From a virus: a stretch of 51,193 nt of DNA. Both the position numbers and the translations under genes were made by a program. The stretch is taken from the IMG/VR virus record IMGVR_UViG_3300020196_000058, positions 1-51,193 of that record; one strand, given 5' to 3'. Of the stretch, positions 9,518 to 33,690 are shown piece after piece; the stretch's first letter is position 1, and every line of letters begins with the position of its first letter. The notes beneath the pieces are model-generated. The model ran no database searches. It saw only the letters and a program-made list of their open reading frames with translations, and was not told where the DNA came from.

Positions 9518-12500
9518 ATGGCTACTTCATCAGGTTCAATAACTATTAGCGCGACGATTGATACTTCCGCTGCGGAAAGAGATGTTTTAGCAGCGTTACG
9601 TCGCATAGAAAGAAAAAGTACTCTTAATTTAAATACCAAGAACTTTTCTCAACCTTTAGGCAGAATCACTGGGCAAGCAGATGAGTTTCAAAAGTCACTT
9701 GAAGCTTCAAATGCTCGTGTTGTAGCATTCGGCGCTTCAGCGGGTATTATTTATAATGTTGAAAAAGCTTTTTCTGCTTTAATTTCCAGCACTATAGAAG
9801 TAGAAAAATCTCTTACTGACATTAATGTAGTATTAAATTCTTCTACTAAAACTTTAACTCAATTTGGTGATCAATTATTTAATGTCGCAAAACAAACTGG
9901 TTCTTCTTTTAATCAAGTAACTGAAGCTGCAATTGAGTTTTCCCGTCAAGGTTTATCGTTAGAAGATACTTTAAAAAGGACTAGAGACGCTCTTATTTTA
10001 ACTCGTCTTGCCGGTTTAGATGTCGTTTCTAGTACTGAAGCATTAACTTCAGCAGTTAACTCTTTTACAAAAGAAGCGCTAACAACAACTGATGTCGTTA
10101 ATAAATTAGCAGCAGTTGACGCAAAGTTCGCTGTTAGTTCAAGAGATCTTTCTGAAGCGGTCAAACGTGTAGGTTCTTCTGCGAGTGAAGCAGGAGTAAG
10201 TTTTGATGAGTTATTAGGTATTGTAACTTCAGTTCAGCAAACTACTGCTCGTGGTGGTGCTGTCATTGGTAACGCATTAAAAACAATATTTACAAGAATT
10301 CAAAGACCAGAAGTTATAAATGATTTAAGAGATTTCGGAGTTGCCGTAAAAGATATTGAAGGAAATACTTTACCGATAGTTCAAGTATTAGAAAACTTAG
10401 CAAAATCTTTTGAGGATTTAAATCCAGTTATTAGAGCTCAAGTCGGAGAATTGGTTGGCGGTGTATTCCAAATTAACATTTTAAAAGCTGCATTATCTGA
10501 TTTATCTAAAGAGAATTCTATTTTTCAAGCAGCGACTTCTGCATCTAATAAAGCAATTGATGATGCAATTATTAAAAATAACGCTCTAAATAAAAGCATC
10601 ACAGCTTTAGTTAATGAAGCTAGTGTTAATTTAGTTCAATTTGGCAAAAATATTGGTAATGTAAGCGTCGGTCCCGGAATTAAAAATTTAGTAGGTATTT
10701 TAAATGATTCTCTTAATCAAATTAATGAAAAGAGCGGGGAAAGTGTTGGAGCTAAAATTGGATCAGGATTATTAAAAGGAATTACTAGTTTTATAACTGG
10801 TCCCGGTTTAATTTTGGGTAGCGTTGTTTTAGGTAAATTATTCGGACGTTTTGCCGGATTTACTGCTGACGCTACTAAAAATCTCCTTGGTTTAAATAGC
10901 GTATCTCAACAAAGAGGAAAACTTGAAGAATCAATTAAAGGAATTCTGCAATCAAATCCTGCTATAATAGGTCAATTAATTACTGGCGAAAAAACTCGTC
11001 TTCAAATCGAAAAAGAAATAAGAGATGTTTTAATTCAACAGTCTAGTTTAGCGGAGAGTATAAAAAATACATCAGAAAGTTTTAGTAAGTCTTTTATTGC
11101 TTCCGGAATGGGTGTAAATGCATCAAATCTTGTAGTTTCTAATAGATTGGCCCCCACTAGGAGGACTTCAAAAGGCTTTTTGCCTAATTTTTCTGATTCG
11201 ATGGCTTCACAAATGACTTCTGAAGTTTCAGAAGCTACAAAGTTAGGAGCTAAAAAGGGAGTTAGAGCTAGACTAAGCGAAGGAACTATTGGCGGCAAAA
11301 AATTTATTTTAAATACAGACGAAAAAGAATTTGTGGGAGTTGGTCGCAATGGAGATTCAATGGTGATTCCAAAGTATGGCGGCGGAATGGAAAAAGCTAT
11401 TGGAATGATGAAGTCTGGTAAAATGGGATCTATTCTTGGTGGTAGCAATTCAGGAATGTCATTTGATGGGTTTATTCCTAATTTTGCTCAAGATGATGAA
11501 GAGTCTGGGGGCTTTGGACCTAAACAATTTAGAGACTACATGAGGAAAATAGGAAAAGCTTATCGTGTCGATAAAATTATAAATAAACAAGGAAAAAAAG
11601 TTGCTGGCCCTCTTACTTGGAATTTATCAGATAAAAATTATTTTACAAATCTTAAACCACAGGAATTAGAGGAATTTCAAACAGATTTACAAGGTTTTCA
11701 AAAAGAATACAATACTAGTTATCTTCCAACTGGTTATGCAAACTATTTAAGAGCTATTACAACACAAATAAATAGAGAAGAAAGAAAGGGTAACCGATCT
11801 AAATCTTCTATTCCCGTACCAGAAAAATTATTAGATGAACCTACAATTAATGCTGCTGTTCTAGTAGCGACGATGGAAACTTTTAAAAATTTTATTCAAT
11901 CTAATTATCCGGCTGAATCACAACAAAAACAAGCCATTTCAAAGAAACTAAGAATAATAAATGATCAGTTAAACACTGCTACAAAATTACAAAAAGAAGG
12001 CAAGCCTGTACCTGTTCAATTATCACAAAGACTAGAGCGATTAAAAAAGTTTGAAAAGTTATATCAAAAACAGGAAGGCATTGTTTCTCAAGTTCCAGCA
12101 AAAGCTTTCGGAGCAAAATATGAAGATTTCGCTTTAAAATATTTAAAAAATTCTGCATATCCAGATATAAAATCTGCTAAAGAAATTGGATTGTTTGGAA
12201 CTGGTGGAGAAGAAACTACAGATGTCGACGCTGTAGATACAGTAAAAAGAGCATTTTTTGAATTTAAAGCTGGTGGAATTGAAATAGATAAAACTAATAA
12301 AAAATTTAAAAACGTCAGAAGTAGACCAGAGAATTGGCCGCTTCTTTTGGGTGTTAAATTTAGTGATGTTTTTGATCAAATAAAAGGTCCATGGCAAGAT
12401 ATTTTAGTATCTAATAATTTAAGAGATCCTATATATAAATTTAAAGGCAATAAACTTTTGCGTTTGCCTTCTGAAGGAGGCACTCAAGACAAAAGACTTT

Positions 12501-15500
12501 ACGCAAATGTTCCAAGTCAAAGAAGAGCAGATCAAAGAGCTGCCGCCATAAGTCCATTCAGTGGAAGTCTTACTGAATTTATTGATGAAGAGTATTCCAG
12601 AATCATGATGGAAAAACCTAAAGCATATTCAAAAGGTTTTATCCCTAATTTTGCGGCTACTAAATTTGATAAATTTAAACTAAATGATCGCTTAGTAATG
12701 GCTTATGGAAAGAAAAATGATCCTGAATCCATAGCAAAATATTTAGTTAACATTGGAAGAATAGATCCTATTTTAGATAAAGCTACTAAAAATCCAATTT
12801 TAGATTCTAAAGGTTCACCAGTAGTAAAATTTTCAGGATTTACAACTAAGTATGGCGCTGATGGATATCAAAACTTAATAAGACATTTTAGAAGTGATGG
12901 AGTTTTAGATTACAGAATTGTTCCATCAAATGATGAAAAGAGCATTACTTCTTATTTGAGACAAATTAGATTATCTGATTTTTCTAAAGGGTATATTCCT
13001 AATTTTGCAGATAACAATTTAAAAGATTTATTAACTGAAGCAAAATTAAAATCTTTTTCTTCGCCAGAAGATTTATATTTATGGTTGACACGTTTAAGTC
13101 AAGAAAAAGGTTTACGAATTAAAAGAGGATCATCTAGAATTGGAATTGCTCTTGATGATAAAATGTTTTTAAAAATTGCAGCTAACAAAGCTGGAATTGC
13201 TCAAAATTTTGTTGAAAATAGAATTTTAAATGATCGATCTGCTAGAGAAAGATATTCTGATATTTTACCAGAAATTTTTGCTTCAGATAATAGAAAAAAT
13301 CTTTGGAGTATCACAGAAAGATTAAACGATGTCCAAGAGTTAGATGGTTTCAAAAGACCAAGACCATCTGAACAATTACTTGGCAAACCCGCTAGCCATT
13401 TCATGCTTTTTTCGCCTTATTCAGATCTTGAAAACCAAATATTAAAATTTGGAGAGGAATACGATATTGACGTGTCTGATTTTTTTGGAGGTAGAAATAT
13501 TGGTTTTACTAGAACAAGTAGTCCAAAACTTAAATTAATGGATTTAGGTTTCACCGAAAGAATCGCTAAAGCTTTTTATCGACAAGGAAGAATTCCAGAA
13601 CTCGGACGCTTTGATAAAGGTTTTATTCCTAATTTTAGTTCTTCTGATGCTTTACAACAGTATTTAAATAATTTTGATTCTCAAACTGTTTCTGAATTTT
13701 CAAACACTAATATCCGTGGGGGTCGCGGTATGAGTGTATTGTCAGCCAGAGTAAAATTTGTTAAAGATCTATTAAACATTAATCCAGATCTTAAAGCAAA
13801 AGAATTAGTTCAAATTTTAAACGAAAGAAGAACTAAAGGAGTTAATGTCAATTTTACAGAAAAATCTATACCATTTGGGCCAGAAGAAGCAAGAAGATTA
13901 ATCGCTAAAGTTCGAAACAGTAGAACTAAATCAATTGATTATTTAGGTAGACCATCTGTTTCTGGAATTTCTCCAGAAGATTTTAGTAGTGGCTTTATTC
14001 CTAATTTTGCTTTTTCCGACTTAGGAACTGGAGCTGTAATACAAAATGATAATAATTATGGAGGACCCTCTGGACGAGCAAGATATTTAACTTTTTCAAA
14101 ACTTAAAAAAGAAGGAATATTTAAAAAATATATTAATTATTTCAAAACCTACGAGTCAGTTGACAAATATATTAACAGGGATGCGCCGAAATATTTTAGA
14201 AATTTTTTTATGCCTAATGGCTCAGTTCCAAAAGATAAAGAACTAGAAGTTTTTGGTAGAAAATTAACAAATGACGAGTCTGATTTTTTTAATGATTTTT
14301 TTTCAAATGGTGATTTTATAGGAACTAGTAGATATCTCAAAGCATTTTTTCCCAAAAATGATCGTTTTTATAAAGATCCATTGGAAAAATCTATTTCTGA
14401 TAGACTTCCGCGTACTCAAGATTATTTTATTAATGAAGATATACAAGACAGATTTAAGAAAACTTTGATTTTTCCTGATGTAAGAAAATCTTACTTAGCT
14501 TTCTTAAAAGAACGTTCTATTCGTCGAGGAATTTTTGTAGATAGTGATCCAGCAATTTTTTTTGAATTTGCTTTGCAAAATGATAAATTGAAAGATGTAG
14601 CTCAAAAAATTAGATCAATGGCACCGCCAATTACTTCTAAAGATTTACAAAAACAAGCCGAGTTCTTTGATAGTCCAGAAAAAGTAGATAAAGATTTGCT
14701 TACTCAGCTTGCGGAATTTGATAGAGATGAAAAATTTTCTTTTTCTGTATTTGGAAGTGTTAAAAAAGCCCCTTTTAATAAAAAGTCTACCGATAATATA
14801 CTTTTTCAATCTTTATATGAAAATTTTAAAGATATAGATGCAGGAGAAGTATTTAATATTCCTAGTTATATTCTACATTCAGGAATACGAGGTTTAGATA
14901 GAGCTATTTATCTAGAATCTAGAAGCCCGCTTGAAGCTTTTAAAGAAGTGACGAATAAGAAAGTGTTAAATTCTAATAAAGAAGTTGTTGATTATTTAAA
15001 ATGGCGAATTTCTAGACCTTCTCCAAGCGAACCAATTGATTTATCTCCTGAAATAACAAAATTTCTTTTTAAAAACGACTATGGTTTATTAAAAAAATCA
15101 CGTTTTGTAAAATATGATTTGGAAAATAGAAAAATAATTGATTTTTTAGTTAAAAATAAAAATTCCATACAGTTTGAAAAAACATTTGCTGAATATGGAG
15201 CAGCAGGACAACAAAGACAATACACATATATAGATTTAATAAATAATTTAACAGAAGCTGATTTACCAAATGGAGATAAAACTTCTCTCCCAAAAGCTTT
15301 TGAAAGTGTTAAAACTAGATTATCAGAACAAGCTAGACAACAAATCGAGAAAAAAATCGCTGTTTCTAATAGGACTTTTCCAATAATACCTCACTTAAGT
15401 AAAGAAACGGATAGAGTAAAAATATTAAAAAATGAAAAATCTTTATATGAAGAAGGAAATAGAATGGATCATTGCGTTGCTGGCTATGGAGACGCATGTT

Positions 15501-18500
15501 CTAATATTGATACGAAAACAGGATTACCTAAAAGCTTAATCGTTTCAACTGGAACGGCAACTGCAGAATTAAATCCTCAAAGAAAAAGAATAATACCAAA
15601 TTCTGATTTTAACACTAGGCAAAATCGCGCTGAAATAAGAAATTTTATTAAAAGCCTCAAGTATCACGCTACTTCTTTAGGCAAATCCAGCACCACCACC
15701 GCAATGGCGGAGTTGATGGCTGAAAGGAGCATGATAGCGGAGGAGGTAAGATTAAATACAGTTAAATCTTATTTGCAATTGAGAAAAGCAAGAAAAGGCC
15801 CACCTTTATATTCAATAGATGCTTATCAAATAAAAGGAATTAGAAATAAAAATCCATCGCAAGAAGATTTAGAGTTGTTTCGCGATTTTGTAAGAAAAAA
15901 TGGGTTGCAGCCAAACTTTGCTTCTGGTTTTGTTCCTAATTTTGCGAAATTTAAAACTTTTTTAGGAAAAGGATTTATTCCAAATTTCAATGCCGTTCGA
16001 GAAGCTATTAATAGAGAAATGGACGCTGGCTTTTCAGCTTCCCAAGTTAAAATCGGACAAAGTAATTCTTTAAAAACTTCATTTAATCCTCAAGGACTTG
16101 GAGTTTATAATACGGTCCAAGAACCCGGCGGTTTAAATCAGGGCATGGCATTTGCGCGTGAAGCCGGAATCAATCCTAAAACAAAAGGAATGAGTTCTGG
16201 ATTTGTACCAAATTTCGCAGAAGGAGGATTTGATAGATTTGATGTTACTTTAATTGCAGCGACTTTAATTGGGTTAAATACTCAAATTCGAAGTGTTATT
16301 GACGCTTTTAAAAACATTAAAGAATCTGTAAAAGCAGTTAACTCTGCTTTAGCAGAAGATGTAAAAGGGATTAGAAAATCAGCTGCAGAAAGAATAAATG
16401 AATTAAATAGTCAACTTAAAGCTGAGAAAACTGTTAGAAATCAAAGTATTGATGCTGCAAAACAAAATATTTCTGATTTAAAAAAGCAAAGAAAAACAGA
16501 GAAGGCTGCTCTTGATGCTTCTACTAAATTACGTGCAGGTCTTGGTCTTGGCCCTGATCCAGCGGAAAATACTAAATATTTAAGTTCATCTCGCGCAATA
16601 GGAAAACAGATAAGGCAACAAGAACAGTTAATAAAAAATGAAAATCTAGCAATACAAACTTCAACTGCGGATTTTGTAACTAAATCTAAAGAAATTGGCG
16701 CAAAATCAAAAATATTAGAATCTGAAAAAATTGCCGAAGCAGCATCGAAAACCACTACAAAAGCGAAAGCTGATACTTTAATTAAAAATGCAGGGTTCGG
16801 GGTTGGTTTGATTGGCGCGGGAGTCGCTAATATAGCTGAACAATTTATCCCTCAACAAAATTTTCAAGCTAGAGCATTAACTTCTGGAGTGGGAGACGTA
16901 TTCTCTTATGCTGGAACAGGAGCGGCTTTTGGTCCAGCAGGAGCAGCTGCTGGAGCGCTTTTGGGAATTGGTATTGCTGCTAAAAAAGTTGTTGATTCTA
17001 ATTTAGAAGAATATATTTATAAAATTGGTAAATCTATAGATTTAATCAGAGATAAAACTAATACTTTTGCTAATGCATCTCAAGGTTATTCATCTTCATT
17101 AGAGCAATTAAAAACAGCATTAAATGATCCTAATGCTAGACCAGATGCTTTAATTAGATTTCAAAATTTAATTCAAGAATCATTAGGACAAATTCCTGAT
17201 GAGTTTAGACAAAAAGTTTTAGCGGCGGGATCTGATTTAACAAAAATAGCAGAAGCTATTTCTGATGTTAATAAAGAATTAGGTAGATCACAGCAAAATT
17301 TAGAATCAGTAAGTAGCGTTTTGCAACTTATATCAAATAATAAAGGTTTCCTTTCTTATTTTGGATCCGCAATACAATTAAGATCTAATGATCAACAATT
17401 ATTAAACAGAAGTTTCACAAGAAATATTAATCAACAAGATTTAACAAAAAGATTTGGCAACCAACAAGATTTTGACAAATTTATTTCTCGATTATCAGGA
17501 GAATTGTTTACTACATATCAGTCAGGAAGAGGCTTGCAGGCTAACGCTCCTCAAGTATTAAATTTAAGAAATTTAAATAAAGTCGAAAGTTTACTTGGTT
17601 CTCAGGGTTTGCTAACTCCAGAGTTGGCATCAGCTTTTAAAAAAGCAGCTGAAAATTTTGATATCAAAGTTATTCGTGGACTTGTTTCATCTCTTCGCGA
17701 ACTCGGCATTACTGCTTTCGCAACCAAAGAAGAAGCCGCTAATTTAACTTCAATTCAAACAGATAATGTAAAAAAGAATAAACAAGCTGCCGAAGCATTA
17801 AGACTTTTAAATCAACAGTATACAAATTTAAATTTTCAACTTTCTCAACAAATTCAAATTGAACAAAATAGATCATCTGCTATTAGAGATATAAATAAGA
17901 TATTTTCTGAAGGAGTTATTAATGTTCAAAGATCAAGAGTTAAAAATTTATTAGAAGTATTTTCACCATTTATCACAGATCAACAACGCAATAATATCCA
18001 AGGTCAATTAGATTTAAATGAAATTACCACTCGTCAAAATTCACAAATTCGAGACGCATTAAATAAAACCTTAGATTCTTTTAATGAAAGTTTAACTTCT
18101 AAAATAAAAGAAATAACAGATCAAGCAATTGGAGTTACTGCTGATTTAAATAGAGAACCAAATCAAATTGTAAAAGATACCAATTTATTTATTAATAATC
18201 TTAGTAAATTAAGTAATTTAGCTAGTCAAGGCTTAGAGGCAGCAAGAGGCGGAGTAAACGTTTCTAACGTACGAGATAAATTAGCTCAAGAAATTCGAAG
18301 TACTGCTACTTTAACTGGAGGTCAACAAGAAGTTCTTATACAACAATTAGAGAAAGAATTTGCTTCTTTTCAAAATGAATTAGCGCGTATTAAAGCTCAA
18401 GGTGAGGTAGATTTGCTTTTACAAAAAAGTCAAGTTGATTTTCAAAGAAAAACTTACGAATTAAATCAACGTTTAAGTTTTGCAGGTGGTGGTCGAGCAC

Positions 18501-21457
18501 TAGCTTCAACAGGAAGATTAGGAGTTTCTGATCTTTATGATAGCATTGCTGATTTAGTTGGAGAACTTAGGCAAAATAATGCAATAGGTAATAGAGGTGA
18601 AAATATTTCCCTTTTGGGATCTAGTGTTTTTAAACTTTTAGATACCTTAACTAATCAATTACAGTTAAATAGAGCAACTACTTCTCCAATTCCTTTTGTT
18701 AGTCCAGAAAGCTTTAATAAAGCTGTATCTGATCAATTGCGTCCTTTAACTGCAATTTCTATCGCAGGAAGAACTAGTCAAATTAGAGAATCTCTTAATT
18801 TAGCTAGACAAACCACTGAAGCTCAAATCGGATCAATTGGAAAAGAAAGTCCATTAGCTTTAGCATTTAAAACTGCTAATGAAAATGCAGTAGGCACAGC
18901 GTTGTTACAGATTTCTTCAGAACTTAAATTACAAAATATTGGTACTTATTTAGATATTTTACAAGAAGAGGCAGGAATTTTAAATCAATTAACTAATGAG
19001 CAAACAAATTATTTAAAAGAACAAATTCCAAATTTAAATAAAAATTTTGCTAGTGTAATTCAAAAAAATGTAAAAGATCAATTAATTACAGTCAATAAAA
19101 CTCTAGAAAGTAAACTGACGGAATTAATTATTGCCACTAAAGAAGCTGATATAAATAAACAAATTAGAGATTTAATACCTTCTAATGTGCCATTTAATGA
19201 TAGAGAAAAGTTTTTACAAGAAATTAAAGATTTGCAAAAGGGGATTTTTAACTTAAATACAAATTTACCCCCAGAAACAGCGCAAGCATTTCAAAAAGTC
19301 ACGAATAATTTGTTGCAGCAAATTCCTCAAAGTACTTTTACTCCTAGTGGTGGATTTGGAGGTAATAATAACCAATCTAAAGATGTACAAATTAGTGATA
19401 TTGTTCGAAGATATTCTGGAGTAACCTCGGGTACTGTTGAATCAATACTTGAGCTACTTAATAAATTTCAAAAATTTTCAACTTCTGTAACTGCAAAACC
19501 TTTAGATAAAAAACAAAATATTGCTTATTTAGAAGGACTAATGGCAGATGCTTTAAAAAATTCTATATATTATGAAAAACTTTTAAATAATAATTCATCT
19601 AATCAACAGCCCGATAAACCAACAGATCCTAATGAAAGAATTCAAAGCTTAAGACAACAATTAAAAGGTTTAAATTTACAAACTGAATTTTATTTACAAT
19701 CCAATACAGAATTAGTCAAGTTACAAGAAGAAGTTAATGAAATTTTAGCTGAAGGAGTTCAAACTAAAGAACAACAAGAAAAACAATTACAAATTCAACT
19801 TAAAATTAGAAAGAAAGAATTAGACTTAGAACTTGCAACTACTAAAGATAGAGAAAAACTTTTATATGAAACCGCATACGGAAGAAATTTCTTTAGAGAA
19901 GAAAAACAAGCAGCTGCTGAAGCAAGAATTACAGCTGAAGCTCGACAAGGAAATGTACCAGTAGGTTCAATTGTTAGATCTGTTTTTGAATATGGACCAG
20001 CTGATGCCGCAAAAGATACGGGGGATACTTTAAAAATATTACTTACTGATTTTAAGACAGGAATTGCTGGCGCATTTAGCGAAGCTATAAAAGGAACTAA
20101 AACACTAAGAGAAGCTTTTTCTGATTTCTTTCAATCTTTATTAAATAGATTAACTGATAGAGCTACCGCTCAGTTGGTTGATACAGTTTTAGGAGCAGCA
20201 CAAAAAGGATTTTCCTCTTTCAATTTTGGAACAGGAAATGCATCGGCATCTTCAGATGGTGCATATACAGCAGGAGGAGTTAATACTGTAACCGGAGCTG
20301 GAGCTAAAAAATACGGCGGCTTAATTAAAGGTTATAACTTTGGCGGTTTAGTAACTGGTGGATCAGGATTTAGAGATGATGTGCCAGCTATGATGAGCGG
20401 CGGCGAATTTGTTATTAAACAAAGCTCTGTTAAAAAATATGGCGCTGATTTCTTAGATCAATTGAATAGTGGTCAAATTCAAACTGCTGCTGATGGTGGT
20501 TCATTCTCAGTTGGTCCAATGAGAAATGAATTTCTCTACAATGATCCAGAACGTCCAACTTCAGGGGAATATTCAGTTGATCCTCGTTTGTCTGCTTTTG
20601 CATTAACTGATGAAAATAATCCTCAAAATAAAATCAGAGAACAGCGTTTTGAGGAATTAGATAGATACTTACAGGATCGCGACCAGTATGAAAAAGATAG
20701 AAAAAAAGCCATCAGTGATTTTAATAAAAAAGTTCAAAGTGTTTTTAATCAAGCTTTAATTGCTGCAGCTATTCAAATTGTTGCATCTACTGCTGCCGGT
20801 TACGCTTCTAAAGGGGGTGGTGATACCAAAACTGAACCACCTGCGAAAAATGCTAAAGGAGGTCTTATTCCAAAATTTGCTTTTGGCGGTGCGGTTAGAA
20901 AACTAAAAGCGGGTGGAATGGCGGGCAAAGATAATATACCCGCATTGCTAATGGGCAATGAATATGTAATGAGCCCAGAAGCTACTAAATATTATGGTAC
21001 TCAATTAATGAGCGATTTGAATAAAGGAACCTTTAATAGAGTTGGTGCTCGCACAAGATTTGCTGAAGGAGGTTTAGTTGGTAGCGGTTCTTCTGTAAGT
21101 TATAGAGGTAATGCTGTAAATAATAACTTTGATGAATTGGTTGTTGCAATAAATACTTTAAATGAAAGTATAAGTAAGAGCAATGGTATTACTCAATCTG
21201 AAACTGGTGGTGTATCTCCAAACTTTAATGCTCAAGGGCAACTTGCTACAAGTTCTATTGTAAATAATATCTCTGTTAATGTTTCTTCTGGAAATGTTTC
21301 GGCTACTTCAGAAACAAATTCAGACAATAAAAATTCAAATCAAAATCAAAACTTGCAAAACAATCAAAAACTTGCTGAATTACTCAAAGGTAAAATTGTG
21401 GAAGTTATTGTCGAACAAAAGAGACCCGGAGGTTTATTGGCTAGCGTTAAGCCTTAA
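9518..21457 (+). CDS. Giant tape measure protein carrying an array of passenger domains
   Basis: 3,979 residues. Residues about 1-360 are the classical tape measure core (IIYNVEKAFSALISSTIEVE, ARGGAVIGNALKTIFTRIQ, LVGGVFQINILKAAL). Residues 553-2234 hold repeats of the motif GF[IVL]PNF[AS] separating globular segments: a PD-(D/E)XK nuclease-like domain (about 860-1010), a kinase-like domain (1165-1367) and a PcfJ-like domain (about 1960-2128). Residues about 2255-2400 are coiled-coil, 2425-2490 hydrophobic (possible membrane insertion), then mostly helix to two C-terminal units with GEFV / NEYV motifs. Fully extended helix (about 0.15 nm per residue) would give about 600 nm; without residues 559-2228, about 350 nm. 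Start follows AAGGAA. The TMP sets tail length and is ejected at infection; delivery of the passengers is inferred. Confidence 0.92.
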   Translation: MATSSGSITISATIDTSAAERDVLAALRRIERKSTLNLNTKNFSQPLGRITGQADEFQKSLEASNARVVAFGASAGIIYNVEKAFSALISSTIEVEKSLTDINVVLNSSTKTLTQFGDQLFNVAKQTGSSFNQVTEAAIEFSRQGLSLEDTLKRTRDALILTRLAGLDVVSSTEALTSAVNSFTKEALTTTDVVNKLAAVDAKFAVSSRDLSEAVKRVGSSASEAGVSFDELLGIVTSVQQTTARGGAVIGNALKTIFTRIQRPEVINDLRDFGVAVKDIEGNTLPIVQVLENLAKSFEDLNPVIRAQVGELVGGVFQINILKAALSDLSKENSIFQAATSASNKAIDDAIIKNNALNKSITALVNEASVNLVQFGKNIGNVSVGPGIKNLVGILNDSLNQINEKSGESVGAKIGSGLLKGITSFITGPGLILGSVVLGKLFGRFAGFTADATKNLLGLNSVSQQRGKLEESIKGILQSNPAIIGQLITGEKTRLQIEKEIRDVLIQQSSLAESIKNTSESFSKSFIASGMGVNASNLVVSNRLAPTRRTSKGFLPNFSDSMASQMTSEVSEATKLGAKKGVRARLSEGTIGGKKFILNTDEKEFVGVGRNGDSMVIPKYGGGMEKAIGMMKSGKMGSILGGSNSGMSFDGFIPNFAQDDEESGGFGPKQFRDYMRKIGKAYRVDKIINKQGKKVAGPLTWNLSDKNYFTNLKPQELEEFQTDLQGFQKEYNTSYLPTGYANYLRAITTQINREERKGNRSKSSIPVPEKLLDEPTINAAVLVATMETFKNFIQSNYPAESQQKQAISKKLRIINDQLNTATKLQKEGKPVPVQLSQRLERLKKFEKLYQKQEGIVSQVPAKAFGAKYEDFALKYLKNSAYPDIKSAKEIGLFGTGGEETTDVDAVDTVKRAFFEFKAGGIEIDKTNKKFKNVRSRPENWPLLLGVKFSDVFDQIKGPWQDILVSNNLRDPIYKFKGNKLLRLPSEGGTQDKRLYANVPSQRRADQRAAAISPFSGSLTEFIDEEYSRIMMEKPKAYSKGFIPNFAATKFDKFKLNDRLVMAYGKKNDPESIAKYLVNIGRIDPILDKATKNPILDSKGSPVVKFSGFTTKYGADGYQNLIRHFRSDGVLDYRIVPSNDEKSITSYLRQIRLSDFSKGYIPNFADNNLKDLLTEAKLKSFSSPEDLYLWLTRLSQEKGLRIKRGSSRIGIALDDKMFLKIAANKAGIAQNFVENRILNDRSARERYSDILPEIFASDNRKNLWSITERLNDVQELDGFKRPRPSEQLLGKPASHFMLFSPYSDLENQILKFGEEYDIDVSDFFGGRNIGFTRTSSPKLKLMDLGFTERIAKAFYRQGRIPELGRFDKGFIPNFSSSDALQQYLNNFDSQTVSEFSNTNIRGGRGMSVLSARVKFVKDLLNINPDLKAKELVQILNERRTKGVNVNFTEKSIPFGPEEARRLIAKVRNSRTKSIDYLGRPSVSGISPEDFSSGFIPNFAFSDLGTGAVIQNDNNYGGPSGRARYLTFSKLKKEGIFKKYINYFKTYESVDKYINRDAPKYFRNFFMPNGSVPKDKELEVFGRKLTNDESDFFNDFFSNGDFIGTSRYLKAFFPKNDRFYKDPLEKSISDRLPRTQDYFINEDIQDRFKKTLIFPDVRKSYLAFLKERSIRRGIFVDSDPAIFFEFALQNDKLKDVAQKIRSMAPPITSKDLQKQAEFFDSPEKVDKDLLTQLAEFDRDEKFSFSVFGSVKKAPFNKKSTDNILFQSLYENFKDIDAGEVFNIPSYILHSGIRGLDRAIYLESRSPLEAFKEVTNKKVLNSNKEVVDYLKWRISRPSPSEPIDLSPEITKFLFKNDYGLLKKSRFVKYDLENRKIIDFLVKNKNSIQFEKTFAEYGAAGQQRQYTYIDLINNLTEADLPNGDKTSLPKAFESVKTRLSEQARQQIEKKIAVSNRTFPIIPHLSKETDRVKILKNEKSLYEEGNRMDHCVAGYGDACSNIDTKTGLPKSLIVSTGTATAELNPQRKRIIPNSDFNTRQNRAEIRNFIKSLKYHATSLGKSSTTTAMAELMAERSMIAEEVRLNTVKSYLQLRKARKGPPLYSIDAYQIKGIRNKNPSQEDLELFRDFVRKNGLQPNFASGFVPNFAKFKTFLGKGFIPNFNAVREAINREMDAGFSASQVKIGQSNSLKTSFNPQGLGVYNTVQEPGGLNQGMAFAREAGINPKTKGMSSGFVPNFAEGGFDRFDVTLIAATLIGLNTQIRSVIDAFKNIKESVKAVNSALAEDVKGIRKSAAERINELNSQLKAEKTVRNQSIDAAKQNISDLKKQRKTEKAALDASTKLRAGLGLGPDPAENTKYLSSSRAIGKQIRQQEQLIKNENLAIQTSTADFVTKSKEIGAKSKILESEKIAEAASKTTTKAKADTLIKNAGFGVGLIGAGVANIAEQFIPQQNFQARALTSGVGDVFSYAGTGAAFGPAGAAAGALLGIGIAAKKVVDSNLEEYIYKIGKSIDLIRDKTNTFANASQGYSSSLEQLKTALNDPNARPDALIRFQNLIQESLGQIPDEFRQKVLAAGSDLTKIAEAISDVNKELGRSQQNLESVSSVLQLISNNKGFLSYFGSAIQLRSNDQQLLNRSFTRNINQQDLTKRFGNQQDFDKFISRLSGELFTTYQSGRGLQANAPQVLNLRNLNKVESLLGSQGLLTPELASAFKKAAENFDIKVIRGLVSSLRELGITAFATKEEAANLTSIQTDNVKKNKQAAEALRLLNQQYTNLNFQLSQQIQIEQNRSSAIRDINKIFSEGVINVQRSRVKNLLEVFSPFITDQQRNNIQGQLDLNEITTRQNSQIRDALNKTLDSFNESLTSKIKEITDQAIGVTADLNREPNQIVKDTNLFINNLSKLSNLASQGLEAARGGVNVSNVRDKLAQEIRSTATLTGGQQEVLIQQLEKEFASFQNELARIKAQGEVDLLLQKSQVDFQRKTYELNQRLSFAGGGRALASTGRLGVSDLYDSIADLVGELRQNNAIGNRGENISLLGSSVFKLLDTLTNQLQLNRATTSPIPFVSPESFNKAVSDQLRPLTAISIAGRTSQIRESLNLARQTTEAQIGSIGKESPLALAFKTANENAVGTALLQISSELKLQNIGTYLDILQEEAGILNQLTNEQTNYLKEQIPNLNKNFASVIQKNVKDQLITVNKTLESKLTELIIATKEADINKQIRDLIPSNVPFNDREKFLQEIKDLQKGIFNLNTNLPPETAQAFQKVTNNLLQQIPQSTFTPSGGFGGNNNQSKDVQISDIVRRYSGVTSGTVESILELLNKFQKFSTSVTAKPLDKKQNIAYLEGLMADALKNSIYYEKLLNNNSSNQQPDKPTDPNERIQSLRQQLKGLNLQTEFYLQSNTELVKLQEEVNEILAEGVQTKEQQEKQLQIQLKIRKKELDLELATTKDREKLLYETAYGRNFFREEKQAAAEARITAEARQGNVPVGSIVRSVFEYGPADAAKDTGDTLKILLTDFKTGIAGAFSEAIKGTKTLREAFSDFFQSLLNRLTDRATAQLVDTVLGAAQKGFSSFNFGTGNASASSDGAYTAGGVNTVTGAGAKKYGGLIKGYNFGGLVTGGSGFRDDVPAMMSGGEFVIKQSSVKKYGADFLDQLNSGQIQTAADGGSFSVGPMRNEFLYNDPERPTSGEYSVDPRLSAFALTDENNPQNKIREQRFEELDRYLQDRDQYEKDRKKAISDFNKKVQSVFNQALIAAAIQIVASTAAGYASKGGGDTKTEPPAKNAKGGLIPKFAFGGAVRKLKAGGMAGKDNIPALLMGNEYVMSPEATKYYGTQLMSDLNKGTFNRVGARTRFAEGGLVGSGSSVSYRGNAVNNNFDELVVAINTLNESISKSNGITQSETGGVSPNFNAQGQLATSSIVNNISVNVSSGNVSATSETNSDNKNSNQNQNLQNNQKLAELLKGKIVEVIVEQKRPGGLLASVKP
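12095..12547 (+). other. Embedded PD-(D/E)XK nuclease-like domain in the tape measure protein
   Basis: TMP residues about 860-1010, in the segment between the motif copies at 651 and 1040. The order of candidate catalytic residues fits the restriction-endonuclease fold: E869 in AKYEDFALKYL, D902 and D904 in TTDVDAVD, then E915-x-K917 in FFEFKAGG. A strand-turn-strand with Asp followed after about 11 residues by ExK is the core signature. Family assignment is by motif only; the flanking residues 658-860 are helical and unassigned. Confidence 0.55.
13010..13618 (+). other. Embedded protein-kinase-like domain in the tape measure protein
   Basis: TMP residues 1165-1367, bounded exactly by motif copies at 1158 and 1368. 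Kinase-fold features in order: a lysine in a beta strand (K1219 in MFLKIA), a helix-C-type glutamate (E1233 in IAQNFVEN), an Asn (N1327) and a DFG-like DLGF at 1342-1345. No clear HRD catalytic loop is visible, so it may be a pseudokinase or a divergent phosphotransferase. Confidence 0.5.
15395..15901 (+). other. Embedded PcfJ-like domain in the tape measure protein
   Basis: TMP residues about 1960-2128, ending at the motif GLQPNFA. It has the PcfJ-family pattern: an acidic-Gly lead-in (LYEEGNRMDHCVAGYGD, with H1985-C1986), a strand TGTATAEL, and a later strand AYQIKGIRNKNPS. About 80 residues appear inserted between the last two strands. PcfJ proteins are known from conjugative elements and phages; their biochemical role is not established. 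Confidence 0.5.
20342..21028 (+). repeat. Two C-terminal GG..D.(V/I)PA.(M/L)..(G/N)E(F/Y)V units in the tape measure protein
   Basis: Residues about 3609-3652 and 3790-3837 share the pattern GGxV-(x)n-GxxDxxPAxxxGxExVxxxxxxKYxGxxxxxxLNxG. Such units are common at TMP C-termini, which face the head-distal end of the tail. The linker before the second unit also carries GLIPKFA, a relative of the GFIPNFA motif. Confidence 0.65.
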
Positions 21458-22979: not shown

Positions 22980-25900
22980 TTAATAAGTTATTAGAATTGA
23001 TAGTTCCATTGTCTGTATATAAAAATTATGTTCAGGGAAAAATCCTAGTTGTTTTCTAGCAGATAAATGTGCAAAGGATAAATTTTTAACGTCATTGAAA
23101 CTCCATAGCTCAGGGTTTATTATAACGTCGCCATTTTCATATGTTCTTTTATAAGTATAATAATTTTTTGGTGTTATTCTAGGGATAAGAATAACTATTT
23201 CTCTCCAACTAGGAATATCAATAGACCCCAAACTTCCTATAACCGTTTGAGTTGTTGTAGAGGATATTAATTCTTCTCCATGATATACAAATACCTCTAA
23301 ACTTTTGTTATCTAAAAACGAAGCTCCATAAACGTCTCCTTGATAAGGAATATTTATTACTAATGAAAATAAATAATCATTTATTAGTGGAACTCCGGGA
23401 TAATATGAAGAATTGTTAGTTAAACTAGTTCTATTTGTTATTTCTGAAGAGGATAAAGCTGCAATGTAATTTGTTTGTCTTGGATTTGTTATGGTGTAAT
23501 TTAAATATTGTTTTTGAAAAGTTGGTGGTATTGGATAATTTAAATCCCCGTCTGGTGATCCGAAATTTTCATCTGGTGTAACATTAAATAAATTGAATCC
23601 ATCACTTAAGTTACTTTCATAATCTTTTATTAAATTTTTTGCAGACTGCTCGCTTGAGCATGTAGCATTATTTATTAAATATTCTTTAATTTCGCTTGTT
23701 TCTGTAGTAATTAAATTACCAGCATTATCACCACTTAAGTCATAGTCTTTTATAATATGTAAGTCTGCTAGGCAAATTGCTTGAGGAGAAGCGGTAAATT
23801 TTCTATTTACCTTTATATCTAAATGTTGTACGGCATTAGTTTGAGAGTTCTCAGGAAATATTCCATTTAGTAAATTAGCAATTGTTTTTATTCCAGCTAA
23901 TAAAGAAGTAAAGATTTTATTACCCAATAAAGTATAAGCTCTGAAGTTAAAAGGTATTATTCTTAAATTGTTGAAATTATTACCGCTCGATTGATGATTA
24001 TATTGAATTTTTCTATTTGCTATAGATAAAGCATAGTAAGCGCCTTCTTCATCGGAAGATGATACCCTGTCGTCTTTTACTTGAACGTGCTCGTCAGTTG
24101 TTGGTTTATATAAAACATTTCTTCTTGTTAATTTATAAGAATTGGGTATTGAGGTTGATTGATTGTTTGTGGGGTTATCGAAAATACCTTCAATTAAAAC
24201 GCTATTATTTAATGTTAAATGAATATAATTAATTCCAGCTTTAAGTATTTTACCTTGTAGACTCTTATCTTCCACTATTATTTCTTCTGGTATTTTAATT
24301 TCTTTATTTACTGAACTAATTACTGCATAAGAAAGTTTTTGTGATCCATTAGAATTTAAAATTGGAGAATCGTAATTTAAAATATTTTTTGTAATAGAAA
24401 CTCCATCTGGCATACTAGATGAAGATGATTGCCAAAGATTCATAAATAAATCAACAGCTATCAAATAAGGTTTATATGCAAAAAGAGTAAATGGTTTACC
24501 AATAGTATCAACTTGATTATTAAAATAGAAAACTTCTGGTTGGTTATCTATGTTAATAAAATGAGAATCAATGATTTCTTTATTGTTTTTATCTTTTATT
24601 GATTTAGGATTATTGTTATCGTCATATACAATTTGATTGACACTAAAATCAAATATCTCTGTTACTGGAATTAACAATAGATATAAATTAGAAACAAAAT
24701 TAGTCATCTTTAATTCCATATTGAAATTAAGTATAACATCTGCAGCGTCTCTAGTTAGTTTAAATTCTGAATTATTTAAAAGATTATCTAATGTTTGTTT
24801 TAAATCATTATCTAAACTATCGTAAGTTACTAATCTGAATCCTTTTGGATCCTTGAAATTTTTAGAAGTAGAAGATAAATTATAGCTATTAAATTTATCA
24901 ATAGCTATTGAAAAGTTTCTTATTTTTCTATTTGTTGCTTGATGAGAAAATAGATAAACTTCGCCTTGAGAAGATTTTTCTTCTTCGTATAAATAATCAG
25001 TTTGGTCGACGTATTTTTGGTAAGCCGCAGCAAATGAAGCTTTATTGTCTACTTTTTCTGGTATGATTTTAATTCTGTATGGATAATATTTATTTGGATA
25101 AATTTGATTATCAATAAATTTTAAATCTGTTCCAATTTGTAAATCTGATGGTAATGGATTTTGAATTGATAATCCATTAAAGAAATCTTTTCTAGTATAA
25201 GAAATAACTTCGTCTTCAAAGTTGCTAACATTAACTATGCAATTTGTTAATTCTTTAAAATATCCTACGTTTGTAATTGTAGAATCACCACGATATTTTG
25301 CGGTAGAATAAGTTGGTGAGCATTCGTTATTAATATTAACTCCATAAACTCTGATAATTCCATTTCTGTTTGTTGCATCAATAGAACTAGTAACAAAAGA
25401 TTTTTCTAAATCTACTGGAGTAAAAATAAAATTAGTATCAATATTAGGATCAAAACTAGAATTATATTCTGGTTTGATGAATATTCTAAAACCTATTGTT
25501 GCTGTTTTTATGTCAGAGTTATAATAAATATCAATATTTAAAATATCTTTCTTGCAGCTCTCGGAATCCTTTGCGTAAGATTGGAAATCAAAAATAACTT
25601 GATCAGGAGCAGATGCTGGTGGTGATGGGGCTCTACTTGGTGTTAAATTTAACCCTGATTCGATTTGAGTAAATTTTAAATTATACATTTGTGCTGCAAG
25701 CACTGTATAGTTATCTGATTGAGAAGCTTCTTGAACCCTAAATATTCTATAAAAATCATAATCTCCATCAGTTGTTCCATCTAAAGAACCAGAATTTCCT
25801 AAATTCCAAATTATTGATGCTGGAGCATAACCGGTTCCTCCTGTATAAGGCAATAAACCACTAATATTTAATCCAGTATTCAAAAATGAATTAAGCCCCG

Positions 25901-28900
25901 TGAGGCGAATAGTGTCATAATTTTGACCTGTTATCAAATCTCCGCTGCCTATAATAAATGAATTTGTAAGAGATTTTCTGAACTCGGCGAAATCGATACT
26001 TCCTGTAATTGCTCCACTTGTTCCGGGGTCAAGTATGTATTTAGGAGAAACAATAGAAAGTTCATATTTAGCTGAATTTTGGAAATTAAAATCTAGTTTT
26101 CTGTCTAAAGTTAAAAATCCAGTAGTAGTATTTGCTTCTAATCCTGAAAAAGAAATAGCATTTAATCTTCCACCAACTGTTTTGTATTTTTTATTGTAAT
26201 CATAGATTTTAATAACGTCTCCCGGTTTAAACATTACTGCTTCTGGACCAGTTTCAAAAGAAACCGTTTCTGTTTCATTATATTCTGAAGCAAGGACCCA
26301 TCTACCTAATCTTTGGGCTTGTCCTCTACTTGTGCATCCAAAAGCTGTGATTTCTGTTTCTTTAAATCCATGTTTTCTAACTGCTTCAACATTTTCTACA
26401 TATTCGATTCCGGGTTTATATAAATTATTTTTATCAATATATCTTACATAAACAGATGTATTTCTATCTTTTAGAGAAGTTGATTCATAATTAAAATTAC
26501 CATCTACTACATTTGAATTTGTAAAACAATATACAGGTGTATTTTGGGGCATATCATTTGTGCTATAAATTGCCCCATTAGCATAATAAAACATGCCTCT
26601 AAATACTGAAGCCATATCTCCAAGAACTTTCAAGGCTTCTTCTTGGCTTTGAATATAAACATTACATGTAAAGCGCGGCTCAATTCCTCCAAATCCATCA
26701 GAAACTAATTCATCACAATATTTACCTATCTGATATAAAGACCATTTATCTACAGAGCTTTCATTAACATAATTTCCTGCGCCATATCTTTTATTAGTTA
26801 ACAAATCATAAAAACACCAAGCAGGATTATCTGTCCATTGCTTTTCTGTTTTAAATTCGCCATCCCACATGTCATTCGATAAACTATATTTCGAGACGCC
26901 ATTTGGAATTAGTATTTTTTGTACCGAGTATTTATCGCTAGAAAATAATGCTTTACTTGTTGCTAATTCTAAAGAAGCGACATCAAAATTTATTGAATCA
27001 ACAGAAATTGAACTACATGAACCTTGAATTTTACCTCCATATTGTTTGGCACTTTCGTCGGTAAATAGTTTTATGGGTTTATTTGAATCTATAAATTCAA
27101 ATGGAGTAAACTTATTACCATATGAATTTTTAAAACTAGAAATTGGTAATAATACTTTGTTTTGAGTATCTGTAAGATTTATAGTATTGTTTGCATTTGA
27201 ATTAACTGAAAAAACACCATGATAGTTTGCAGAATTATTTACTTTATCTAATTCTACTTGATTGACCGAGGATTGCTTTTTTTCATCCCAGCCATAAGAA
27301 ACGGATTCTTCATTAGAAAGTATCGAGCTTGCATTTAAAAATTGAATATAATTAATATGATTAGCTACATTTAAATCACAGATAATTTCTTCTTTAAAAT
27401 CTAATAAAACTATAAATTGAGAATTTAAAATTGTTGGATTTGAAGATTCATAAAGAAATATAGAATCATAAAGCGCACCTTGTTTTTGACCTCCAGAATT
27501 TATTTCTTTCGCAGGAAATTTTATATAATTATTGTAAAGTCTATTATCTTTTATATAAGTGTTTATTAATGGATTTAAGTTTGAATCGGTGCTTAATGAG
27601 ACTTCTTCAATAAATCCTTTAGTTTCAGCTGCTTTTACTAAATCCGGCCATCCTCCCTCAAAATAAAGTCCCATGCTTGCTGGGCCTTTACTTATTAAAG
27701 AGTCTACATTTCCTAAATGACCATATTGACGATGGTTTTGATACCAAGTTTTATTGTATTTTGCGTTTTGTTGTAAAACTTTCGGTAAAATATAAGCGGT
27801 TATTCTTCTTGGATATATTTCTTTAAATTCGCTAGCTGTTGCTTTGAGTTTTTTCTTAATTTGAAATTTTTGAGAAGTTTCTTTATTAATTAAAGTTAAT
27901 ATTAAATATAAAGTTTCTCCTGTTACTTGTAATGATAAATTAAATTGATCATCTCTTTGCATTAGAGAATAATTACCATCAGCTATTGTATTTTTTAAAT
28001 TTATACTGCAATCAGAGTAAAAACTGCAAAAGCCTTGATTTGCTAAATTCCATTTGCTAGTTAAATTTCTTTGTCTTTGAGGTATTCCTGCGTAATAAGC
28101 ATTTTGATAATCTTGAGTAGAATCTTTAGCTACTCCTCTAATGCTAGTAGTTGCTCCTTGTCCATTTCTGCATATTGTTTTTAATGGAATATTTACAGAA
28201 GAAGAGTCTAAAACTAAAATCTTTTTTGTATTATCAAATGTTGTAGTAGCTAAAACATTCCATTTTTTATTTAACCAGTTTCTAATACTAAAACATTCAC
28301 TTTTTGTAAGAGATCTATTAAAAATTAATAGCTCAAATAAAGTGCATTTACTTTTTTGATTTGCGTAAATTGTTCCTGATCTATTGACTGCTAATCCTTG
28401 TGGAGCATATGTAAAAGTTAAATCAGTAGTTGAAAAATTAGTATTTTGCCAGTATGTATCTACGCTTTTAGACTTTGTTCTTACTGATGCTCCTACAATA
28501 TAGCAATTAGAATCTTTTTCATTAAGCGTATATTCATTTATATCATTCCCTCTTGCAGTATTCGTCGTTTCATTTGAGTTTATCCATGTTCCAAACCAAA
28601 ATGCTTTATTATAATTATCAAAAAATCCTAAAATTACTTGATTTTCTGCATTGCTGCTATGCAATATCATTTTTCTTTCGTTATGTAATGCAAAATCATG
28701 TATTTTTGCTACGTAAAAAACTGTATAGTCGCCATTAGGGCCATCAAAAGTTTTTTTCGGGTCTTCATAAGTGAATCTTACGTTTTGACTGGTTGTAAAA
28801 GTTACTCCATATTTTCCATTTGGACTTGTTTCAGAATTGCCAGCTCCCTTGGTTGGCCCATTTGCTCCTGCTGGACTAGCATACGTTCCACCCCCGATAA

Positions 28901-31080: not shown

Positions 31081-31817
31081 AGTAGATTGTGCCTCATTGT
31101 ATAAATTACCCATTTTTTCTGAAGTCTGGAAAGTCTTTCCTCTTTAGAGATGCTGTTTCCAGGATGATGTAAAACTTTATCTCCTCCTAAAAAAATCATA
31201 CAATGTATTGGAAAATTATAATTAGCAGTTCTTGTTATAAGAATATCATTCTTTTTGGGGCTTTCGACTCCTTTAAAACCGTTTAACTCAAAATATTTTT
31301 TTAAATAATCACTTCTAGTTTTAAGAAAATCTACTTCGTTAATACATCTTTGTTTTACTAAAATATCGTATTCCTCTTGCGAGGCATTATTTTTAATTAT
31401 TTCTTGCTCGGAAGCTAAATCTATATTTAAATTATACGAATAGTAATCTTTGACTAGCCATAAACAATCTGCGAAACCTAAAACGAATGGTCTTTCTGTA
31501 TATTGAATTTTTAAACCATTTGGATTATATTGATGAAATGTATTAGAATTTTTATTATAAACAATACAGGGCAACCCTAGTCTTTCTGAAACTATTTCGT
31601 CTTCTCTAGAAATGCGATCATAATCAATATGAGAATGATAATAAGCAACAGTGTCTCCATCTATTCCTTCCATCATGAATTGTGTTGCTGAATTTAATAT
31701 ATTTTCTTTTTTTTCAATTACTAAGATATCGCCTTGCATTTTTATAAAGCCGCAAACTTCATTTGGGCTAGATAATGCATGATTTATTATTTCATGTTTA
31801 ATTTCTAAATTTAACAT
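31077..31817 (-). CDS. Tail-tip peptidase K paralog 2 (JAB/MPN + NlpC/P60)
   Basis: 246 residues. N-terminal JAB/MPN metallopeptidase domain: E20 in PNEVCGF, then H61-S-H63 with S70 and D73. The spacing between HxH and SxxD is six residues instead of the canonical seven. C-terminal NlpC/P60 domain: catalytic C118 in FADCLWLV and H205 in FPIHCMIFLG. Lambda K has the same two-domain layout; the NlpC part cleaves peptidoglycan peptides during entry. It overlaps the upstream K-like gene by 7 bp and the I-like gene by 4 bp. It is a diverged tandem duplicate of its neighbour. Confidence 0.85.
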
Positions 31818-32566
31818 AGTTGTTTATGTCTTGCGAAACAATATATTCTTCTTTTCTCTGGATTTGAAAGTTTTTCTATCAAAGATTGCTTGTTTCTTGG
31901 TTGATGTAAAATATGATCGTTGCCTAAGTAAATTCCAAAATGAGAAGGGTAATTGTCTAAATATTTAAATATTATGATATCATGTTTTTTAGCTTTTTGT
32001 ATTTCATCTATTTTAATAAAATTTTCTTTAGCAAGAAATTCGTCAAAGTTTTTATTATTTGTGAAACAAGAAAGTTTATATTCTATGAAATCTTTGTAGT
32101 TTTTATCCCAGTTTTCATGTCTTTCATAGTGAAATATTTTTAATCCAAATTCTTCATTATAATATTCTTCGATAATAGATAAACAATCTGATTGATTAAT
32201 TTTGAATTGTTTATCTGTATATTTAGAAAAATAATTTTCTGGGCAATATTCTTCGAATTTATTTTGTTTGTGAATATAGACTATGTTTTTTAAATTTAAT
32301 CTGTGGCTTATTTGTTTGTCTAATTCTGAAAATGAATTATCTTGAATACAATGAGAATGATAAATACCAATTATTTTACCATTTCTAGAAGCTTTTAAAT
32401 AATCTTTTGGATTTATTATAAATTCATTAACTTTGTCTATAGCGGTATTTTGGGCATTTAGTATTTTTAGACAATTATCTTTTATATAAAGTAATCCGCA
32501 GCATTCATTTGGATAATCTTTAATTGCATGCTCTTTGATAGCATTTTTTATTTCTTCATTAACCAT
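31811..32566 (-). CDS. Tail-tip peptidase K paralog 1 (JAB/MPN + NlpC/P60)
   Basis: 251 residues. The JAMM zinc site is complete: E21 in PNECCGLL and H70-S-H72-x7-S80-x-x-D83. The NlpC/P60 domain has C128 in QSDCLSII and H209 in YPSHFGIYLG, followed by ILHQP. Between the two, about 80 residues are helical. The protein would act in the periplasm-facing tip as a peptidoglycan endopeptidase, with a JAB protease or scaffold half. It starts at a TAATG overlap with the L-like gene and overlaps the second K-like gene. Two K genes in a row is unusual for lambda-type tails. Confidence 0.87.
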   Translation of the reverse strand: MVNEEIKNAIKEHAIKDYPNECCGLLYIKDNCLKILNAQNTAIDKVNEFIINPKDYLKASRNGKIIGIYHSHCIQDNSFSELDKQISHRLNLKNIVYIHKQNKFEEYCPENYFSKYTDKQFKINQSDCLSIIEEYYNEEFGLKIFHYERHENWDKNYKDFIEYKLSCFTNNKNFDEFLAKENFIKIDEIQKAKKHDIIIFKYLDNYPSHFGIYLGNDHILHQPRNKQSLIEKLSNPEKRRIYCFARHKQLC

Positions 32567-33690
32567 TACATTGATCCTCTTTGGTAATTAGAAACTCCAT
32601 AAAATCCACCAAAGGGTAATGCATTTTGACCGTATCTTATTCTGCAGCCTTTTAGCGTTTTAGAACATTGATCTGCCAACCAATAATTACCATTTGGTGG
32701 TGGCATATTAATAGGAACATTGACTTTGGCTACAAAATAAAAATTAATATTCTTTTTAGTTATGTATACAACTGATCCTTTTTCATAAGATTCTTTTGAT
32801 TTCCATTCAACTGGATTATTTGATAAAACAGTAGGGGAGATTATATCTTTAATTAGTTGATCGTCTTCAGTTGCACAAACTGGAGCAATTTCTCCTGTGG
32901 TATCACTTTGATTTGGAATAGCAGTTGTTGTTCCATGAGTATCTTCATTTAATCTAGATTGATATTCATACAAACAACCCTCTCCTCTGTATTGCCATGG
33001 GCAAGCATAACTTAAAACTCTTCTTCGTGGTAATTTTACTCTATCTAAATCAATGGCGCTGGATAGTTCAAATTGAATTGAATTTTTATTTTCAAATGAT
33101 TTTCTGTCTAAATAATAGATATCTTTAGGAAATTCGCAATTTGGATCTGGGTCAAATCCTTCCGGAATAGAAGCGTAATCTGAAGTAAGAGGAGTGTTTG
33201 AATCTGTTTGATAAAAATTTTTTCTATCTAGAAATTTCGCAAATGTGCGTCTTCTAGTAAATTTTGCTCCTATTAAACTTCCAAAATTTACTGTTCCTTT
33301 AAACAAAGAAAAAACATCAAGCATTTCATCTGAAAAAGAAATCGTAATTTTCGGTTTTGGGAATACTCCTTTAGAGGCTAATTCAAATCCTTCTGCAGCT
33401 AGTGGTGCAGGTAAATAAGGACTATTATTCCAATAAATAACATTTTTTCCTAATTTTAAATTATTATGAAGTCTAATAATTCTATAATTAAAATCATTAT
33501 TTATTGTTTCTGTCGAGCCGGGTAATGCAATTTGAATTTCTCTTAAATTAATAATGAATTGGTTATCTGTGCTAAAACCTAAATCGCTTAAATCAATTTC
33601 AAAAAGATTTATTATCGATGAAGGCTCCAAAGAGAAAAACTCTTTGTTCATCTTTAATGAAGCATTTTTGATTTGTTCTTGAGTTGCCAT
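32566..33690 (-). CDS. Minor tail protein L family with inserted carbohydrate-binding-like module
   Basis: 374 residues. Lambda L family features: CPWQYRGEGCLY with C230 and C239, then C342 and C349 in DQCSKTLKGCRIRYG, ending LPFGGFYG. In lambda L the four cysteines hold an iron-sulfur cluster. Here about 100 residues lie between the second and third cysteine. That insertion contains EWKSKESYEKGSVVY, a YFVAK strand and a WLADQ end, the pattern of CBM5/12 (chitin-binding type 3) modules. It is preceded by the M-like gene with a 1-bp gap and overlaps the K-like start by 1 bp. Role: tail-tip assembly, with likely sugar contact. Confidence 0.82.
   Translation of the reverse strand: MATQEQIKNASLKMNKEFFSLEPSSIINLFEIDLSDLGFSTDNQFIINLREIQIALPGSTETINNDFNYRIIRLHNNLKLGKNVIYWNNSPYLPAPLAAEGFELASKGVFPKPKITISFSDEMLDVFSLFKGTVNFGSLIGAKFTRRRTFAKFLDRKNFYQTDSNTPLTSDYASIPEGFDPDPNCEFPKDIYYLDRKSFENKNSIQFELSSAIDLDRVKLPRRRVLSYACPWQYRGEGCLYEYQSRLNEDTHGTTTAIPNQSDTTGEIAPVCATEDDQLIKDIISPTVLSNNPVEWKSKESYEKGSVVYITKKNINFYFVAKVNVPINMPPPNGNYWLADQCSKTLKGCRIRYGQNALPFGGFYGVSNYQRGSM

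Follow-up and report, generated by a model that had tools for sequence, protein, structure and literature searches.

The tape measure protein (TMP) encoded in IMG/VR record IMGVR_UViG_3300020196_000058 (51,193 nucleotides, analysed over the whole stretch, which is referred to below as the window) contains seven cassettes set between nine copies of a short peptide, G[FYL][IVL]PNF, and one of the cassettes carries a domain that very probably has a PD-(D/E)XK nuclease fold. TMPs are known as rulers, as chaperoned rods, and sometimes as cell-wall enzymes. Comparison of related proteins shows that, in this phage lineage, entire cassettes are exchanged precisely at the peptide G[FY][IV]PN[FY]A; as judged from these alignments, the array sits between a constant N-terminal TMP domain and a constant C-terminal rod. 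The window protein matches PF10145 (PhageMin_Tail) of Pfam at residues 123-309 (E 1.2e-29), tape-measure PHROGs (best E 7e-46), and, in tblastn searches, the TMPs of named phages. The original prediction had recognized a nuclease-like domain within the TMP and overlooked the cassette array around it.

Exchange of cassettes is seen in close pairs of TMPs, defined as nonredundant proteins with N-terminal regions at least 85% identical (the pairs share members, so they are not independent events). At least one cassette is without counterpart, i.e., unrelated, in 24 of the 32 close pairs. At the first motif, 21 such pairs drop from about 40-80% identity on its N-terminal side to 0-10% from position +7 onwards. 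The reverse is seen at 20 right-hand boundaries, where identity is about 5% ahead of the motif (except for the A/S at -2) and reaches 55-100% from the first motif residue. An independent set, selected by the N-terminal domain, shows the same exchange in 55 of 99 pairs. For example, two TMPs from different samples (L126 and L127) have N-termini 99% identical, nuclease cassettes 98% identical, and unrelated neighbouring cassettes, followed by 1577 C-terminal residues with 81% identity. The nearest relatives of the window TMP, 60-69% identical in their N-terminal part, share with it at most the last module of 69 amino acids. In a recent survey of protein shuffling across phages (PMC10684548), TMPs showed a mosaic signal, but no genuine recent case could be confirmed; the pairs found here constitute recent cases of TMP exchange, with breakpoints placed to the residue. 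Neither the motif nor the cassette exchange is described in the literature searched, subscription papers and preprints being outside its reach.

The boundary peptide has the consensus A-[AS]-x-G-[FY]-[IV]-P-N-[FY]-A, and positions beyond the consensus are not conserved. Among the IMG/VR matches listed for a degenerate DNA pattern of GFIPNFA, nearly all are large open reading frames (ORFs) with multiple copies. Three patterns yielded 240 ORFs with at least two motif copies, in which the motif density is 2.0 per 1000 amino acids versus 0.054 in other ORFs of the same viral loci. As motif-based sampling is biased to the motif, a reverse check was made from a profile of the N-terminal domain (A7), by which at least 531 IMG/VR stretches encode a relative of the TMP lineage. 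In the best 80 of these at least 531 stretches, chosen by the N-terminal domain alone, 76 TMPs contain at least two motif copies; of the remaining four, three end at the DNA edge and one is a closed ORF of 500 amino acids. The same N-terminal domain is present in all 140 motif-containing ORFs with an intact N-terminus (49 others start at the locus edge), and every one of the 541 motifs in ORFs whose N-terminal domain is intact lies behind it, the first usually 78-176 residues past its end. In bacterial and archaeal genome contigs the motif gave mostly chance matches, with at least two copies per ORF at one of 80 loci, on a short contig of a metagenome-assembled genome. A tblastn search of named phages with the nuclease domain, its homolog, the 68-amino-acid module, and the N-terminus with cassettes retrieved the N-terminal TMP domain only.

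Synonymous codons are shared between motif copies of one gene at a rate of 0.61 versus 0.54 expected; as this is barely above expectation, it is mainly the peptide and not the DNA that is kept. A direct test for conservation of the motif at the DNA level, as a recombination site, showed that such conservation is weak. The peptide might serve as a site for processing or for docking to the tube or a chaperone, or it might be a structural seam where any insert is tolerated. The frequency of the exchange, its precision at the motif, and the commonness of nuclease-like cassettes might also be read as the work of nuclease cassettes that act as selfish, homing-like elements, cleaving TMP alleles that are foreign or lack the cassette and being copied in during repair, with the motif as their landing place; nuclease genes are known at the boundaries of genetic exchange in phages (PMC10448857). 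This explanation is quite unlikely, as cassettes without nuclease residues (GNAT, GHKL, PcfJ, and cassettes of unknown kind) swap too, the motif is kept as peptide more than as DNA, and a homing enzyme has no need of in-frame fusion to a virion protein.

The original prediction had named E869, D902, D904, E915, and K917 as a PD-(D/E)XK active site, and all five residues are present in the translation (codons 12122-12124 for E869, 12227-12229 for D904, 12260-12262 for E915, and 12266-12268 for K917; D902 from 12221). Taken by itself, the E/D/E/K pattern is weak and not significant: E-x28-38-D-x6-14-hh-[DE]-h-K occurs in 31% of whole-protein shuffles and in 2.9% of region shuffles. What lifts it above chance is the conservation of the catalytic residues in divergent homologs, which are 29-36% identical to the domain of the window or to each other and were seen only in other TMPs (L184, on a contig shared with L429; L126, with L096 and L430; L127, with L431; and L103). 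Across four divergent homologs, 12 of 80 ungapped core columns are invariant, including E869, D904, E915, and K917, and likewise D907 and G919. Of the four residues originally expected to be conserved, E869, E915, and K917 are kept, whereas D902 drifts and D904 is invariant instead; D904 is therefore the likely metal-site aspartate.

The AlphaFold (AF2) model of the domain covers 208 residues and was obtained with an alignment of four sequences. Its elements follow the order helix 31-48, a short strand near 56, strands 75-77 and 82-87, helix 93-105, and strand 130-135, and in the core (about residues 861-982 of the TMP) the predicted local distance difference test (pLDDT) is roughly 70-85. At the level of prediction, this is the helix-strand-strand-strand-helix-strand core of PD-(D/E)XK enzymes, as had been anticipated; the range first given to the domain (12095-12547, residues 860-1009) overlaps the core but overshoots its C-terminal end. 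In a structural comparison with VIA-align, nearly all of the 50 best matches are PD-(D/E)XK enzymes, such as EndoMS/NucS (Z 8.4 and 8.0), FokI (6.9), NucC (6.8), CdiA-CT (6.5), an Hjc-type resolvase (6.1), and BamHI (5.2). Other top rows include BspD6I, Card1, Bse634I, SgrAI, and HamA of Hachiman, and almost no other folds are present. The core topology, the VIA-align list, and the conserved E869, D904, E915, and K917 support the PD-(D/E)XK reading, so that residues 861-982 are with high probability a PD-(D/E)XK nuclease fold with an intact E-D-ExK site, and the domain is predicted to be an active nuclease, which is likely. It resembles members of the superfamily (EndoMS/NucS, NucC, FokI, CdiA-CT toxins, and Hjc) in predicted fold and in the conserved E, D, and ExK, and differs from the named families in that it has no sequence match to any of them and is embedded in a TMP.

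The diversity of the lineage is reflected by 503 cassettes from 189 nonredundant ORFs, some of them incomplete, which represent a partial sample. They form about 141 families, 96 of which have a single member, and few can be named: a staphylococcal nuclease (SNase) homolog (L103:8760-9341, minus strand; PF00565, E 1.9e-9), three GNAT members, a GHKL-type ATPase (a cassette of 799 amino acids, L027:4352-6748, minus strand, with a match just under the Pfam cut-off), PcfJ, and a cytidyltransferase-like cassette. The PcfJ family is known from conjugative elements. The TMP of L103 carries both the SNase cassette and a homolog of the PD-(D/E)XK domain of the window. Several families keep an invariant or near-invariant E..D..[DE]xK or D..ExK. 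In the commonest of all families (cluster 0, 82 cassettes), G98, E102, D123, and K150 are the only positions that are invariant or nearly so in 57 diverse sequences; cluster 3 keeps E188, D215, and K242, cluster 8 D156, E168, and K170, cluster 16 E17, D36, E46, and K48, and cluster 21 E15, D35, D62, and K64. No single shared nuclease family is proposed, as profile-profile comparison of the window domain with the other E..D..ExK families revealed no link.

In cluster 18 (e.g., L094:1674-2198, plus strand), nuclease-like cassettes contain ADAH in place of ExK and are, by this sequence change, possibly inactive or altered. Such altered catalytic positions, together with the large share of unannotated families (most of them) and of single ones, would fit cassettes that are inert spacers or structural ornaments, with captured enzyme folds left unused. 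This seems improbable, since the catalytic residues are the best-conserved positions, as in cluster 0, and E869, D904, E915, and K917 hold at identities as low as 29-36%. Readings by eye of some cassettes as ADP-ribosyltransferase-like ('LYRG'), HAD-like, zincin-like (HExxH), or kinase-like found no confirmation in Pfam; the kinase-like look of cassette 4 of the window (13010-13618) is likewise unconfirmed, and this cassette has no PDB sequence match. Cassettes at L171:5703-6320 (minus strand), L185:2532-3278 (plus strand), and L041:7921-8547 (minus strand) open with an LYRG-type stretch, as in ADP-ribosyltransferases.

TMPs occupy the lumen of the tail tube and exit from it during infection. 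In this lineage, the TMP would be ejected ahead of the genome or with it, and the cassette domains would be carried by it into the cell, either threaded through and folded again or cleaved from one another at the motifs. The nuclease cassette would then cut non-self DNA, putatively the host chromosome, a plasmid, a defence element, or a resident prophage; other functions in the cell would fall to the other cassettes. Modification, location, or choice of sequence might spare the phage's own DNA. The role first suggested for the putative nuclease, namely action at entry on host DNA, plasmids, defence elements, or the phage end, is plausible. That the TMP of this lineage is a carrier of a nuclease-fold cassette, delivered to cut DNA other than that of the phage, is moderately favoured. 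Slightly more probable than not is a broader description, in which the TMPs of this large, uncultivated phage lineage are multi-slot polymorphic effector carriers composed of a constant N-terminal domain, interchangeable enzyme cassettes, a nine-residue peptide for processing or docking, and a constant rod; each phage would bring its own set of entry effectors, often including nucleases.

The TMP is a virion protein in contact with the leading end of the DNA, and the domain, with the same fold, might act on the phage's own DNA or in the handling of tail and genome, e.g., in end processing or gating of ejection. A housekeeping role of this kind would predict conservation throughout the lineage, whereas the closest relatives of the window TMP lack the cassette and leave six of the seven window cassettes unmatched, and in other TMPs the nuclease cassette is replaced by unrelated enzymes. 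Such a role is considered unlikely.

Several points weigh against the delivery of a nuclease that cuts non-phage DNA. Over all 208 residues of the model, the mean pLDDT is 54 and the flanks are poor. A VIA-align Z of about 8 is near the level of models without clear relatives and can reflect a common arrangement, Foldseek against the PDB gave no significant match (best E 0.5), and the domain has no sequence or profile match in Pfam, PHROG, or the PDB, which is frequent among divergent PD-(D/E)XK members. For cluster 0, the family of L237:7033-7773 (plus strand), a fold search with its confident model (pLDDT 88) gave Z values of at most 3.3 and listed no PD-(D/E)XK enzyme, so that its PD-(D/E)XK label derives from residues only; the suggestion that many cassettes may be nucleases is likewise derived from residues. 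A folded domain may not fit into the tail lumen. Delivery, refolding, motif cleavage, the DNA target, and nuclease action are steps that we infer.

Given the frequency of the residue pattern in whole-protein shuffles and the Foldseek E-values, the E/D/E/K match might be coincidental and the domain might belong to another fold. This is very unlikely in view of the conservation at low identity, the predicted topology, and a VIA-align list dominated by PD-(D/E)XK enzymes; the Foldseek list, although not significant, opens with nucleases of restriction and repair and with a CdiA toxin. The fold was assigned because a list drawn almost wholly from one superfamily, combined with conserved active-site residues, is otherwise hard to explain.

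Among known systems, polyvalent proteins of phages and conjugative elements (Iyer et al. 2017, PMC5512222) also combine unlike enzymatic domains in one polypeptide and are thought to enter the cell with DNA. The same feature is found here, with PcfJ and PD-(D/E)XK domains in the window TMP and SNase, GNAT, and GHKL domains in its relatives. In contrast to polyvalent proteins, the carrier is a TMP, and the cassettes are bounded by, and swapped at, one repeated peptide; the full text of PMC5512222 contains neither 'tape' nor 'PcfJ'. MuF polymorphic toxins of temperate phages (Jamet et al. 2017, PMC5576092) have a constant, phage-derived N-terminal part and variable effectors, and their delivery by phages has been proposed. 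Their carrier, the MuF protein, belongs to the DNA packaging module and varies at one end, whereas the TMPs contain many internal slots and a constant C-terminus. Of the hallmarks of polymorphic toxins, the combination of a constant part with an exchanged effector part is present, as close relatives contain unrelated cassettes; the variable domain of such toxins is C-terminal, whereas the cassettes lie inside the protein, ahead of a homologous C-terminal rod.

TMP-related effectors of contractile injection systems (Sle1 of Streptomyces lividans, PMC13277306; PMC11126660) likewise have a TMP architecture that carries interchangeable domains, but they belong to a bacterial nanomachine and contain one functional domain, in contrast to the motif-bounded cassette array of phage TMPs. 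Enzymatic domains inside TMPs are also represented by lysozymes, transglycosylases, and peptidases (e.g., PMC10194240). These act on the cell wall, whereas the exchangeable slots of the present lineage contain nuclease, acetyltransferase, ATPase, and other folds. There is a reasonable chance that multi-slot TMPs should be placed in a separate class. If the proposed function is correct, a ruler with exchangeable enzymes would deliver proteins before phage gene expression, when restriction and other immediate defences act. The approximately 141 cassette families, mostly nameless, provide a defined place to seek new phage effectors, and processing or docking can be tested directly on the short peptide.

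Table 1. Features of the TMP gene and of the tail genes in the window (aa, amino acids)
Feature	Coordinates	Strand	Description
TMP gene	9518-21457	+	3979 aa; nine G[FYL][IVL]PNF copies, seven cassettes between
N-terminal TMP region	9518-11173	+	aa 1-552; constant part of lineage, PF10145 inside
Motif copy 1	11174-11194	+	aa 553-559, GFLPNFS
Cassette 1	11195-11467	+	aa 560-650; short module of the first slot, with homologs in the same slot of other lineage TMPs
Motif copy 2	11468-11488	+	aa 651-657, GFIPNFA
Cassette 2	11489-12634	+	aa 658-1039; carrier of the PD-(D/E)XK domain
Predicted PD-(D/E)XK fold core	12098-12463	+	about aa 861-982; conservation, AlphaFold, VIA-align
Motif copy 3	12635-12655	+	aa 1040-1046, GFIPNFA
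Cassette 3	12656-12988	+	aa 1047-1157
Motif copy 4	12989-13009	+	aa 1158-1164, GYIPNFA
Cassette 4	13010-13618	+	aa 1165-1367; phrog_4301 (unknown function) match, E 2e-7
Motif copy 5	13619-13639	+	aa 1368-1374, GFIPNFS
Cassette 5	13640-13990	+	aa 1375-1491
Motif copy 6	13991-14011	+	aa 1492-1498, GFIPNFA
Cassette 6	14012-15925	+	aa 1499-2136; largest; PcfJ-like PF14284 at aa 1923-2026, E 2e-6 to 3e-7
Motif copy 7	15926-15946	+	aa 2137-2143, GFVPNFA
Motif copy 8	15971-15991	+	aa 2152-2158, GFIPNFN
Cassette 7	15992-16198	+	aa 2159-2227; conserved last-slot module of ~68 aa, 54-63% identical to that of other lineage TMPs
Motif copy 9	16199-16219	+	aa 2228-2234, GFVPNFA
C-terminal TMP region	16220-21454	+	aa 2235-3979; alignable in relatives, 33-42% identity
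gpJ-like protein	22980-30356		2458 aa
gpK-like tail protein	31811-32566	-	JAB and NlpC/P60 domains
Phage_tail_L	32566-33690		adjoins the gpK-like gene

The window also encodes other tail proteins, i.e., Phage_tail_L, a gpK-like protein of the JAB/NlpC type, and a gpJ-like Phage-tail_3 protein; as these constitute a lambda-type tail tip, the virus is probably a siphovirus. The contig IMGVR_UViG_3300020204_004643 agrees with the sequence of the window at 99.98-100% and is therefore the same virus, which provides no independent confirmation. The gene located 3' of the TMP gene is on the opposite strand. The tail genes are followed downstream by two genes of the glycosyltransferase-like type and one resembling DNA polymerase III alpha, at 43251-46317 and 46925-49513, both on the minus strand.

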